NCBI GenBank assembly: GCA_913063155.1
Contig: CAJXYU010000001.1
Location: forward strand, 744,001-808,000
Direction: 5' to 3'
Source: an uncultured Desulfovibrio sp.
Lineage (GTDB): Bacteria; Desulfobacterota; Desulfovibrionia; Desulfovibrionales; Desulfovibrionaceae
Length of the DNA stretch: 64,000 bases
This document shows positions 6,438 to 9,582 of this stretch, in pieces. A program made the translations under genes and the position numbers. The notes beneath the pieces were generated by a model. The model saw only the letters and a program-made list of their open reading frames with translations, did not search any database and was not told the origin of the DNA. How positions within the stretch are numbered: position 1 is the stretch's first letter; every line of letters starts with the position of its first letter.

Positions 6438-7094
6438 TCAAGCTTTTATGATATCGATGGCCGCCCCCTTTTCCCTGTCTGACCTGAGCGCGAGAATGCG
6501 ATCCGTGTCGCAGGAAAAAAGGTCCAGCGGATGATGACTGATAACCAGCACCTGAAGATTCAGGCGGTGGGCTATCCTTTTGATGAGTTTCATGAACTTG
6601 GGGATCAAAGTGGGTCGCAGCCAACAGTCCTGCTCGTCCAGCACCAGGAAAGGACGGTGCCGGTCCTCGGGGAGCTGGGAAAGTGCGATGAGTCGCAGTC
6701 CAACGGAGAGAATATTGCAAACCGAGCCCCCCTGCCCCACGAGAATATCTTCCACTTCCTCCCCTTCCCCCTGGTTGTGGATTTCAAAATGGACTTGAAG
6801 CCGGTTGTTCTTGACTTCACGGCGCGAAGCGACCACCCGATCCTGTCCGAGAATTTCGCGGATGGCGTGGGTCAGGTTGGCCTCGATCTCGTCCAACACC
6901 TTGCCGAACAAAGCCGTGGACAACTCTTCCAGCGCCTTCTGGGCGCAGGGAGCCAAATCCAGAAAGCCTTGCGCTTTAATGAGAAGCTTACGTTCGCGTC
7001 CATGTTCGTCGACTCGGCTTTCGCCGAAAGCGGATAATCGGTCCAAACGACGCTCCAGGTCGCGCAGGGAGGGAAGCGGTACATCCGGTTGCAT
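6438..7094 (-). CDS. C-terminal half of a split Rad50/SbcC-type ATPase
   Basis: A 218-residue protein that looks like only the C-terminal lobe of an SMC/Rad50 ATPase. After a helical start it has an ABC-signature-like GQGGSVCNILSVGLRLIAL, a Walker B strand PFLVLDEQD (Gln where Pro is common), and an H-loop VLVISHHPLD. There is no Walker A. The missing N-lobe with Walker A is encoded three genes upstream (8353-9582), so the two proteins probably associate to form a complete nucleotide-binding site. Its ATG shares one base with the stop of the coiled-coil gene (TGATG). It is the last gene of the run and converges with the EAL-HDOD gene. Confidence 0.82.
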   Translation of the reverse strand: MQPDVPLPSLRDLERRLDRLSAFGESRVDEHGRERKLLIKAQGFLDLAPCAQKALEELSTALFGKVLDEIEANLTHAIREILGQDRVVASRREVKNNRLQVHFEIHNQGEGEEVEDILVGQGGSVCNILSVGLRLIALSQLPEDRHRPFLVLDEQDCWLRPTLIPKFMKLIKRIAHRLNLQVLVISHHPLDLFSCDTDRILALRSDREKGAAIDIIKA

Positions 7095-7414
7095 CAGCGG
7101 CTCCCATTCTCCCGAAAAGCCTGCTCGACGGCCTGAAGCCCTTGCTGCAGTTCATTGATGTGCCGACGGTATTCTTCCACAACACGCTCGTTTTCCTTAC
7201 GTTTTTCCTCCAACAGACTGTGGAGTTCATCAGGGTCAGAAGTCTGGTATTCGGCTTCGGCCCGGGCCTTGAGCTCATCCAACTGAGCCGTCAGATTGAC
7301 GATATCCTGCTCCACCCGCACCTTGCGATCGCGCAGGGCCTCGTACTGCCTGCGCAATCCCTGCAGTTCCTGCTCCAAAGCCGCGTCGCGATTGCCGCCG
7401 TTATTCATCATCAT
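7094..7414 (-). CDS. Small coiled-coil protein of the split Rad50/Mre11 module
   Basis: A 106-residue, charged, almost wholly helical protein with heptad-like spacing from the ELQGLRRQYEALRDRKVRVE region to HINELQQGLQAVEQAF. No signal peptide, cysteine pair or catalytic motif is seen. It overlaps the nuclease gene by 14 bases and touches the C-half ATPase gene by one base. Its position suggests it may supply the returning arm of the coiled coil that a normal Rad50/SbcC carries between zinc hook and C-lobe. That role is inferred. Confidence 0.72.
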   Translation of the reverse strand: MMMNNGGNRDAALEQELQGLRRQYEALRDRKVRVEQDIVNLTAQLDELKARAEAEYQTSDPDELHSLLEEKRKENERVVEEYRRHINELQQGLQAVEQAFRENGSR

Positions 7415-8363
7415 GGATTACCTCCTCGTACAGTTCCCAAATGAGCTTGCCTTCGGCTGTGGTTGCGTCGAGATTGTCCTGTAAAAATTCCTTGAGTCCG
7501 ACCCCTTCGTGAGTCCTGCGCCAAGCCAGTCGTTCCAATCCTTGCAGGAATTGGGACTGGCCTTCCTTCTCGTGTTCTTCAGGAGGGAACTCCTGATCGG
7601 GGAAGACCTCTGCAAAGGGCATGTGAGGCAACTCCCAAGACTCCAGATCCGCACAACCAGGCCTCCAGATGTGCGCGGCTGGTTTACGCTCCCGGCTCAT
7701 GCGGGTGAAGGTCAACCGGGTGATGTTGCCAGGGTTGGCCCAAGTAGTCTGTCCCTGGCGGACGGCCTCCTGGGGCCGGTGGATGTGACCATTGATGAGC
7801 CAGTCGATGCCGGGCAACTCCTTGATGCTGTAGGACCGGTCCTTGAAATCACCGAACTTGATATTGTGGTGGGAGACCCAGACAACGGTCTCCGGATCAT
7901 CTTTCTGTTTTTCGTATCCCTTTGGAAGCGGCGCACCGTCCGGGCTGGCCCCCACCAGCACCCTCCCCTCCGGAGTCTCCACAACAAACTGCGGCCCCTT
8001 GTCCTTCATGAGGTTGACCACTCCGGCAATCTCCAGCACAGCCAGGGATACGTCGTCGGTGAAACGCGACAGATACTTATCGTGATTCCCCACCAACACC
8101 CACGGTTTGTAGGGACCTGTGTAGGAGCCGAAAAGCCGGATCAGATCCACAAGCATCTTGTTGGAGTTGTCGCGGGGCCAATGAAACAAATCGCCCAGCA
8201 GAACCGGTACCAAATCCAAGTCCACAGCCCGGTCCAACCCGGCCTTGAGCTTGTCCATGACCTGAGCCAGATACCCTTCCAGGCGCTGGCCCGGCGGGTT
8301 GTCGGCCAGGTGGGCGTCACCGATGAGCAGCAACCCTTTGCCCTGCACGGTCTCAAGTGCCAT
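7401..8363 (-). CDS. Mre11/SbcD-like metallophosphoesterase nuclease
   Basis: A 320-residue calcineurin-like phosphoesterase. The metal-ligand motifs appear in order: LLIGDAHLAD, VLLGDLFHW, VLVGNHDKY, VWVSHHN and INGHIHRP. These are the motifs of the Mre11/SbcD nuclease family. A C-terminal extension of about 100 residues may be the capping/partner-binding region. The ATG at 8363 has AGGAGG seven bases upstream; longer in-frame extension upstream is coded over the ATPase gene and is rejected. It overlaps the upstream N-half ATPase by 11 bases and the coiled-coil gene by 14. The likely role is DNA-end or hairpin processing together with the split ATPase. Confidence 0.88.
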   Translation of the reverse strand: MALETVQGKGLLLIGDAHLADNPPGQRLEGYLAQVMDKLKAGLDRAVDLDLVPVLLGDLFHWPRDNSNKMLVDLIRLFGSYTGPYKPWVLVGNHDKYLSRFTDDVSLAVLEIAGVVNLMKDKGPQFVVETPEGRVLVGASPDGAPLPKGYEKQKDDPETVVWVSHHNIKFGDFKDRSYSIKELPGIDWLINGHIHRPQEAVRQGQTTWANPGNITRLTFTRMSRERKPAAHIWRPGCADLESWELPHMPFAEVFPDQEFPPEEHEKEGQSQFLQGLERLAWRRTHEGVGLKEFLQDNLDATTAEGKLIWELYEEVIHDDE

Positions 8364-9582
8364 GACTGCATCCTCCTGCCAGAAACTCCTCGGCATCCAA
8401 TTCTCCGCCACAGGTAGGGCAGCAGCCCATGTCATTGAGCCGCGCCTTGAGCGCAGCCTCGAAATCTGCCATCTCCTGCTCCAGCGCCAACAGGCCCTGT
8501 TCGGCCTTGCCTTTTCGCTGCACAAGATCATTCATCATGCCCACGACGGAGCGTAGCGGCGCGTCGTCAAACAGCTGCGGCGGATCAACCAGTCGAGTCA
8601 TGGCTCCAGCCCGCTGCTCGACCTGTTTCAGCCCGTCTCTCACGGACTGCAACTGCCGGATCAGCCCGCTCAGGGGCTGCACGTTTTCGGTTTGCGGAGG
8701 TTCTACCAGTACGGCAAGGGTTTTGGAGGTTTCACAGGACTGACGAAGCTGTGCGGCAAGCACGGCCTGTTGGTGCAACTGCTGCTTGAGGCTCTGCACA
8801 TCCTCCAACTCCGGCGGAGCGACGACCTCCTTCATGGCCTCTGCCGCCCGCTTCAGCCAATACATGCGCTCTTCCAAGACGGTGCGCTGTCGCAGCACAT
8901 TCTCCAAAGCGGGAATCTCAACCCGAAGCCGGTCGATGCGTTCCTTGAACTTCCGGGCGGCCTCGATTCCGAGAGTCAAATCCGGCAAGGGAGCCAGCGC
9001 ATCCAGCTCACCCTCAATGTCGCGCAGCCTGACATCTCGCCCGGCCACTTCCTTTTTTGTTTCCATGACGCGGCGCTTGAGCGCTCCCTGCATGGAAAGC
9101 AGATGTGCTCCCTCCGTGGAGGAAGCCAGAAAGTCAGCCACGGCCCGGTCCGAGAGGTTGAGCAGGAAAACCGGTTCGCGCTGGTTCCCGATATGTACGT
9201 CGATGCGTTCGCCCCCGTCCAGATCCACCGGGTCCAGGCGGAGCACCTTGCGGATGTCCTCGGGCACGATACCGCGCCCCAGTTTCCAATACTCCTGCGG
9301 CTCTTCCTCGCCCGGCAGATGCAGTTCATACCCGGCGCTGCGCTTCTTGCGTACCCAAACGACCTTCACGCCGCTCTCCAACTCCAGGGAAACTCGCGTC
9401 TCCTTGGCCCCGTGACGGATGAAGTGGCGGGGCGGGGGATTGGTCGCTACGCACCGCAAGGCCTCCACAATGGCTGACTTGCCCGTATTGTTGGGGCCGG
9501 TCAGGGCGGTCACACCTGGCCCGAGCTCCACCACGGTGTGCTCGTGGGCCATGAAATTTTCCAGGACGATTTTCGTGATCAT
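8353..9582 (-). CDS. N-terminal half of a split Rad50/SbcC-type ATPase with terminal CPxC hook
   Basis: A 409-residue protein beginning with the Rad50-type MITKIVLENFMAHEHT and a Walker A TGPNNTGKSAIVEAL, followed by a long helical region and ending in GCCPTCGGEL (Cys387/388/391) a few residues before the stop. It resembles the N-lobe plus the outgoing arm and zinc hook of Rad50/SbcC, cut at the hook. No ABC signature or Walker B is present; these are in the 6438-7094 product. The helical region carries repeated PP-containing segments (VAPPELEDVQSL, VEPPQTENVQPL, VDPPQLFDDAPL). The gene is 31 bases downstream of the Cys-rich gene and overlaps the nuclease gene. Confidence 0.85.
   Translation of the reverse strand: MITKIVLENFMAHEHTVVELGPGVTALTGPNNTGKSAIVEALRCVATNPPPRHFIRHGAKETRVSLELESGVKVVWVRKKRSAGYELHLPGEEEPQEYWKLGRGIVPEDIRKVLRLDPVDLDGGERIDVHIGNQREPVFLLNLSDRAVADFLASSTEGAHLLSMQGALKRRVMETKKEVAGRDVRLRDIEGELDALAPLPDLTLGIEAARKFKERIDRLRVEIPALENVLRQRTVLEERMYWLKRAAEAMKEVVAPPELEDVQSLKQQLHQQAVLAAQLRQSCETSKTLAVLVEPPQTENVQPLSGLIRQLQSVRDGLKQVEQRAGAMTRLVDPPQLFDDAPLRSVVGMMNDLVQRKGKAEQGLLALEQEMADFEAALKARLNDMGCCPTCGGELDAEEFLAGGCSHGT

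Follow-up and report, generated by a model that had tools for sequence, protein, structure and literature searches.

The minus strand of a 64,000-nucleotide stretch of DNA from an uncultured Desulfovibrio sp. (contig CAJXYU010000001.1, positions 744,001 to 808,000; hereafter the window) carries, at window positions 6438-9582, four overlapping genes that encode, in order, a Rad50/SbcC-like N-lobe with a long arm and a terminal hook motif (N), an Mre11/SbcD-type phosphoesterase (M), a small coiled-coil protein (K), and a Rad50/SMC C-lobe (C). The analysis confirmed this four-gene split Rad50/Mre11-type set. Its products probably form a DNA-end-processing complex of the Mre11-Rad50 type (MR, SbcCD-like), with a Rad50 that is open at the hook. 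In the textbook picture, a Rad50 or SMC protein is a hairpin, with a hook or hinge linking its half-heads. The initial annotation of the window proposed that the chain had been cut at the hook, with the nuclease gene lying between pieces that cooperate and with K serving as the return arm. Predicted folds, gene order, trees, and a permuted fusion supported the cut and the cooperation, but K as the return arm of Rad50 is unproven.

Organization and conserved motifs of the gene set

All four open reading frames were found at the positions and on the strand proposed, with overlaps of 11 (N-M), 14 (M-K), and 1 (K-C) bases; fixed stoichiometry of the products is only an inference from these overlaps. 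Chance was judged by residue invariance in aligned relatives (43 rows for N, 28 for M, and 61 for C) and by the order of the genes in 67 of 80 loci. The motifs that had been claimed were present, namely Walker A (TGPNNTGKS) and the hook in N, five phosphoesterase motifs in M, and LDEQD and the H-loop in C. Profile searches placed N in AAA_23 (E = 5.8e-12, Pfam) and M in Metallophos (4.4e-8); the match of C to SMC_N was weak (9.8e-4, below the cut-off).

The N protein (409 residues; 8353..9582) was assigned from AAA_23, SMC6, and Rad50 profile matches and from a structural model. Within its Walker A, GPNNTGKS (residues 29-36; 9475..9498), G29, N31, N32, G34, K35, and S36 were invariant in all 43 rows, as were Q134, which by its position we take to be the Q-loop, and both cysteines of the hook motif CPTC (C388 and C391; 8410..8421). 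This motif begins 21 residues before the last residue of N, and the last CxxC lay 18-42 residues from the C terminus in 55 of 55 N proteins. Searched against solved structures, the N profile matched SMC6 (4.2e-10) and Rad50 N-lobes (6.8e-9 and weaker; 3qkr, 1.4e-8) and, in a separate match, Rad50 hooks (6zff, 5.2e-6; 1l8d, 1.3e-4), consistent with a CxxC zinc hook that is predicted to bind zinc.

The model of N (mean predicted local distance difference test score (pLDDT) 81.7) consisted of an ABC (ATP-binding cassette) half, helices at 158-250, helices of ∼28 residues separated by PP loops, a final helix at 341-385, and the hook; its predicted template modeling score (pTM) was 0.39, and the layout of the arm is therefore untrustworthy. 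The arm (residues 158-385; 8428..9111) is composed of ∼39-residue repeats split by PP loops, as judged from the model and from a comparison of lengths, N growing by such repeats from 399 to 680 residues across relatives. The model superimposed on the Rad50 N-half 1f2u_A with a Z score of 10.6 over 129 of 149 residues, and SMC and RecF heads fitted equally well or better (up to Z 12.7). N accordingly has the Walker A and the fold of a Rad50-type N-lobe, which SMC and RecF fit as well. Among protein families, the best NCBIfam match was NF045487, the archaea-specific SMC-related proteins (ASRP; 1.5e-14, 53.5 bits, far below the cut-off of 300); AAA_27 was reached only at E = 0.026 (14.5 bits, below the cut-off of 22), and phrog_16465, labelled “exonuclease,” at 3.8e-25. 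Stop-to-stop frames of 605-980 residues in four genomes had raised the possibility that N is fused to an upstream domain, but this was unsupported; all four genes were present in these genomes, the N match began within the frames, and their extra 5′ length is taken as probably non-coding.

The C protein (218 residues; 6438..7094) begins with a 73-residue helix, which is followed in the model (pLDDT 88.9, pTM 0.67) by the other ABC half. The usual ABC signature is LSGGE/Q. C contains GQGGSVCN, with GQGGS in its place, and we take GQGGSV (residues 120-125; 6720..6737) to be the signature from its position; H187 (in SHH; 6534..6536) is likewise presumed to be the H-loop histidine. GxGGxV, LDEQDCW, and H187 were invariant in 61 rows, and the Walker B FLVLDEQD (residues 149-156; 6627..6650) was conserved among relatives. 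C also matched phrog_15167, labelled “ATPase” (5.8e-6). The top Foldseek match was a Bacillus subtilis SMC half, followed by Rad50, and in a second structural comparison the Rad50 C-half 1f2u_B led (Z 11.6, 2.8 Å, 142 of 145 residues), nearly tied by Rad50 9a9j_B (Z 11.5). C thus combines the signature, Walker B, and H-loop with the fold of a Rad50 C-half, SMC halves being close behind or first. N and C match the two chains of one Rad50 head. Crystal 1f2u itself contains the head as two chains (residues 2-149 and 738-882), which shows that it is physically possible to build a head from two polypeptides.

The open frame of M extends farther 5′ than the start chosen here (7401..8363), an ATG at 8363 that corresponds to a methionine invariant in relatives. 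The DxH, GD, GNHD, HH, and GHxH motifs were invariant in 28 rows, and the M profile matched the Mre11 structure 4hd0 (7.4e-6). With five phosphoesterase motifs and a gene encoded together with its own ATPase, M is a putative Mre11/SbcD-type enzyme. Nucleases of the Mre11 family are Mn-dependent. The fourth protein, K (106 residues; 7094..7414), was judged from its sequence to be a coiled coil with a helix break near YxTSDxxEL.

Conservation of the gene order in bacteria

When the C-lobe alignment was used to scan a genome collection (described as covering 84,980 species), 123 relatives were returned, and 80 were kept; the use of just two peptide patterns makes the count of relatives a lower bound. 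The order N-M-K-C, with all four genes on the same strand, was seen in 67 of the 80 loci, including one with broken frames (L081). Six of the remaining 13 were cut by contig ends (L057, L063, L064, L085, L104, and L105), one was without N (L110), and six contained C alone (L060, L088, L089, L090, L092, and L120). When script-chosen starts were used, overlaps were found for N-M in 50 of 54 loci, for M-K in 60 of 68, and for K-C in 37 of 71. The hosts were Desulfovibrio and its relatives, Desulfacinum, Syntrophobacteraceae, Desulfobacca, Desulfobacterales, and many Planctomycetes, together with one Parachlamydiaceae bacterium and two Firmicute-type (Bacillota) bacteria, one of the latter cut by a contig end. 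In the phylum of the window, 14 of 297 sampled genomes contained the C-lobe.

That the four genes are unrelated neighbors, or that the split arose from an assembly error, would fit the six loci in which C stands alone despite at least 3.3 kb of upstream sequence. N was also sought in the genomes of these six loci and of L063, in which C is likewise alone; in three of the seven it was not found, but in the other four it lay on another contig with M and K adjoining. The conservation of the order over several phyla, mostly with overlaps, and a permuted fusion that unites both lobes likewise argue against such a coincidence, which we regard as negligibly probable. A sequencing or assembly error was rejected because the order is conserved in 67 of the 80 loci and in a cultured Microcystis phage.

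A permuted form on proteobacterial megaplasmids

On megaplasmids of Variovorax, Acidiphilium, Bosea, Methylorubrum, Rhizobium, Pseudomonas (two), and Alteromonas, the order was K, then a single polypeptide with the C-lobe before the N-lobe, and then M (8 of 8 loci opened). The fusion query aligned unbroken across both lobes with 21 plasmid records from 9 genera, the query's own included; the eight that were opened comprise five reached first through M (5 of 9 records) and three more of the 21. None of the eight fusions has an internal stop, and each has a CxxC 11-62 residues from its end. Walker A follows Walker B by pattern in seven; in the eighth (L173) Walker B falls outside the pattern, and the C profile matches at 2.4e-28. 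K was matched by its profile in seven loci and recognized by position only in Alteromonas, and M retained the DxH, GNHD, and GHxH motifs in five.

The C-N fusion is a natural circular permutation of Rad50. Because the C and N lobes are fused in permuted order, they are parts of one protein that is open at the hook, and this opening persists even where the lobes are fused. A permuted Rad50 on megaplasmids is new here. The flanks of four of the loci (L170, L171, L175, and L176) contain a phage-like replication gene set; the plasmids are 0.27-0.91 Mb and are typed non-mobilizable.

Phage forms of the system

The cultured Microcystis phage Mvi-JY20 carries N-M-K-C as four overlapping genes, all annotated “hypothetical protein,” and the third phosphoesterase motif of its M reads GQHD. 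A search of phages with the permuted fusion returned a single record, this same phage, in which the genes are split and not fused. An uncultured 485-kb jumbo phage carries N, M, a coil (recognized by position and by eye), and C, in this sequence. A PD-(D/E)XK nuclease separates M from the coil, and a 377-residue open reading frame that is sliding-clamp-like by eye and has no Pfam match separates the coil from C. The C of this phage matched two viral contigs, one from the same phage and the other with N, M, and C in the same order.

A further arrangement, N, K, C, M, was found in the group of Bacillus phage vB_BboS-125. N, C, and M were present in 27 of 27 viral contigs of this group (one being that phage), and K was detected by profile in 12. 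In vB_BboS-125 an AP2-domain gene (gp33) separates N from the K-like gene, and the record leaves unannotated an intact open reading frame for an Mre11-type phosphoesterase (L123:9247-10230; NC_048735.1 22420-23403). In Microbacterium phage Magritte, an N-lobe in which no hook was seen (gp155; L124:4001-5053) and a C-lobe (gp2; L125:284-934) are separated by ∼40 kb if the two ends of the genome are taken as connected.

Direct searches with the bacterial sequences reached little of this. The C-lobe alignment found no relative among 26 pattern matches in viral contigs, C searched against phages gave merely three records (E 0.06-0.09), and M gave nothing at 0.01 by tblastn, phage M being detected solely by profile. 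The families phrog_16465 and phrog_15167 probably hold the phage halves of the system, since they match N and C; by contrast with the gene set, they are two separate families, and M has no match in PHROG at E 1.

Probable co-inheritance of the parts and scarcity of other SbcD-type nucleases

Trees of N (first 170 residues, 40 sequences), M (37 sequences, those of the two Pseudomonas loci and the Alteromonas locus being omitted), and C (40 sequences) contained the same three groups, namely bacteria, plasmids, and phages. Support for the bacterial group was 0.90, 0.94, and 0.96 in the N, M, and C trees, respectively; for the plasmid group it was 0.51, 0.91, and 0.55 and for the phage group 0.43, 0.96, and 1.00. 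Distances among the parts were correlated at 0.84-0.91 over 54 bacterial loci, as expected of jointly inherited parts, although common descent alone likewise gives high values.

The system might instead be a replication and recombination module derived from phages or plasmids and kept for work at replication forks rather than for general break repair. The jumbo phage copy adjoins a thymidylate-synthase-like open reading frame (by eye) as well as the PD-(D/E)XK nuclease, in vB_BboS-125 a resolvase and a helicase follow a few genes farther on, and the megaplasmid copies lie near genes for topoisomerase, helicase, RecJ, thymidylate synthase (thyA), or ribonucleotide reductase. Sampled bacterial copies nevertheless form one group apart from phages in all three trees, and neighboring genes recur in relatives of the window. 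We consider this origin and use rather unlikely, although it is compatible with a DNA-end-processing complex.

Among 199 genomes in the order, 64 carried N (E < 1e-50); G102 and G124, in which N fragments lie at contig ends, were excluded from the co-occurrence count. An SbcD-family match at E < 1e-7 was found in 2 of the 64 genomes with N versus 115 of 133 without it, and at E 1e-3 in 8 of 64 versus 118 of 133; 28 of these 118 passed the curated SbcD cut-off. Across the Planctomycete phylum the corresponding numbers were 0 of 11 genomes with the system, one of which (G204) had been chosen as a centre for having it, and 56 of 137 without it (p 0.007). Because genomes with the system mostly have no SbcD-like nuclease, these counts suggest that it replaces SbcD-family nucleases in its hosts. 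The two exceptions among the 64 at E < 1e-7 were G115, which has sbcCD, and G125, which has an SbcD fragment containing a stop. In G115, from the same genus as the window, the split system occurs together with an sbcCD locus (L132, G115:C1:1170000-1180000) in which the SbcC signal is divided between two frames of 912 and 214 residues, possibly a gene under decay or interruption.

As to a canonical sbcCD in the window's own genome, the SbcD profile TIGR00619 had no match at E 1e-3, and TIGR00618 had none among the 3 of 49 candidates scored, its cut-off being strict (none of the 199 genomes and one of the 14 controls passed it). No AAA_27 match was found in that genome either. When five of the weaker SbcD cases from the order were opened, the phosphoesterase in each adjoined a long ATPase whose P-loop reads GxNEAGK[ST], and the one ATPase tested belonged to AAA_27 (1216 residues). 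Judged by their distribution, such AAA_27-Metallophos pairs, which are of the YhaN/YhaO kind, are probably the counterpart of the split system in those genomes of the order that do not have it.

The place of K

Wherever K and C shared a locus, K lay upstream of C (71 of 71 loci measured), within 60 bases in 58, which corresponds to where the distal return arm lies in the usual Rad50. The sequence of K is also coil-like throughout. Against this placement stands the possibility that K is a subunit that regulates or caps a two-chain Rad50, as Nbs1 or an SMC partner does, perhaps through binding to N or M. All 71 loci encode K by a gene of its own, as do the megaplasmids in which C and N are fused, and no open frame in the 80 loci contains two of the four parts. 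Its length is 97-120 residues whatever the length of N, and its helix break is conserved. In the four genomes in which C lies elsewhere, K stays beside N and M. Equality of antiparallel arms was judged from lengths only, single chains having been modeled, and sets an N of 399-680 residues against a nearly constant K and C (208-246 residues for C). Because only N changes in length, K stays with N and M, and K is separate from the C-N fusion, either the repeats fold back or K is a cap or regulator. The chance that K is such a subunit falls a little short of even.

A model for the complex

In the complex that we favor, N and C would fold into one ABC head, with Walker A contributed by N and the signature, Walker B, and H-loop by C. 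ATP would bring two such heads together as a dimer, which would drive the action of M on DNA ends, hairpins, or blocked ends. The CxxC at the end of the N arm may pair through zinc with that of a second N chain and, because the arm ends in this motif, tethering would occur by a hook near a free C terminus. The 73-residue helix of C would pair with the head-proximal part of the N arm, K would either bind in line with the C helix as a distal return arm or cap the repeat arm of N, and the gene overlaps would hold the parts together. In its host, the system would substitute for SbcCD/YhaNO-type repair.

Several observations weigh against this interpretation. Assembly of the complex is itself inferred, as are zinc pairing, nuclease activity, a role in break repair, and the place of K. 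Against solved structures the C profile found an SMC half (1.1e-4) and no Rad50 by sequence, and the arm of N is modeled poorly. The variation of N beside a nearly constant K and C is unlike a paired Rad50 coil, and K had no profile match in 15 of the 27 loci of the vB_BboS-125 group or in the jumbo phage. The plasmid and phage groups were weakly supported in some trees (0.43-0.55), and the co-occurrence tests were uncorrected for phylogeny. Finally, the catalytic motifs of M are lost in three megaplasmid loci (L175:6730-7626 and L176:6754-7656 from Pseudomonas and L177:6641-7417 from Alteromonas), and nuclease activity is therefore not universal; judged by its sequence, the motif-less M beside a permuted Rad50 may have a structural role only.

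The nearest known systems are Rad50-Mre11 and SbcCD, with which we group T4 gp46-gp47. The gene set shares with them ABC half-heads of the Rad50/SMC fold, a CxxC hook motif, and an Mre11-type nuclease in the operon. It differs in that the chain is broken at the hook, which comes to lie near a free C terminus, that the M gene stands between the halves, that K is separate, that the arm is built of ∼39-residue repeats, and that TIGR00618 and TIGR00619 have no match in the genome. In a Rad50/SbcC protein a single chain contains both lobes, the N-lobe first, and the hook lies mid-chain; since this arrangement is absent, and the fused form is permuted rather than restored, the system was filed as a variant and not as a member of Rad50/SbcC. 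The YhaN/YhaO-like pair similarly combines an SMC-like ATPase with a phosphoesterase, but has a single long AAA_27 chain in the one tested, and the window's genome has none.

In full-text literature, the coverage of which leaves out subscription papers and bioRxiv, none of the matches listed described a Rad50 that is split or permuted, in keeping with the claim of the initial annotation that the layout was undescribed. The nearest published oddity found, according to the portion of the source available, is a family of Mre11-Rad50 fusions (Mimivirus R555 and others) with Mre11 in front of a Rad50-like domain (PMC3175470). As far as that portion describes them, these too are rearranged genes of the same complex with a viral and plasmid spread; here, by contrast, Rad50 is cut or permuted, M is separate, and the two are never joined in one frame in the 80 loci. 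ASRP (PMC9389158), the best NCBIfam match of N, is a single chain, its NCBIfam model having 593 positions. The phrase “two separate polypeptides” in PMC7824862 was considered as a split Rad50 and rejected, as the passage matched concerns RNA polymerase.

A broader proposal, which we hold tentatively and at slightly less than an even chance, is that the system represents an old third lineage of Mre11-Rad50 in bacteria, phages, and megaplasmids, with a Rad50 open at the hook and either separate or permuted, a ring opened by releasing the C-lobe/K arm, and replacement of both SbcCD and YhaNO. If this is so, the closed hairpin of Rad50 and SMC would be inessential, DNA would be loaded or freed by dissociation of an arm, and continuity from head to hook would run through one arm only. 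With natural forms that are cut or permuted, it can be tested directly which connections of the chain the machine requires, how the ATP signal reaches the hook, and whether the ring has to open there. Genomes scored by standard profiles as devoid of SbcCD or Rad50-Mre11 can carry a diverged complex, and phage and plasmid gene sets, many of them now annotated as hypothetical, gain a likely identity.

Genomic neighborhood

In the window, which lies on a contig of 1.14 Mb, the neighbors of the set include a C_GCAxxG_C_C gene, a methyltransferase, MurJ, and a Fapy-DNA glycosylase. In the 80 loci these recur 12, 15, 13, and 9 times, respectively, all in nearer relatives, with many loci too short to show their flanks. 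Such surroundings point to a resident system with a housekeeping role.

An SMC/Rad50-like ATPase with a nuclease, patchily spread across phyla, could also be an anti-phage or anti-plasmid defense complex like Lamassu or Gabija, an option raised in the initial annotation. In PADLOC, N matched LmuB (4.9e-12) over residues 2-398, nearly its full length, as well as AriA (4.2e-9) and GajA (3.6e-8), and C matched mad3 (7.6e-6). Of the 25 PADLOC matches of N listed, however, all but LmuB were confined to the first 90 residues, and M had none; the LmuB match may reflect shared SMC ancestry. Ten flanking proteins had no match to a PADLOC defense family at 1e-10, so that neither the partner proteins nor the neighborhood of a known defense system was found, and MurJ, the methyltransferase, and the glycosylase recur beside the set. 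Phages themselves carry the system, and it anticorrelates with SbcD-family nucleases. A defense function is accordingly improbable.

In four loci (L034, L035, L057, and L068), extra open frames were present between K and C, reaching 688 residues in L035 and 452 residues in L057.

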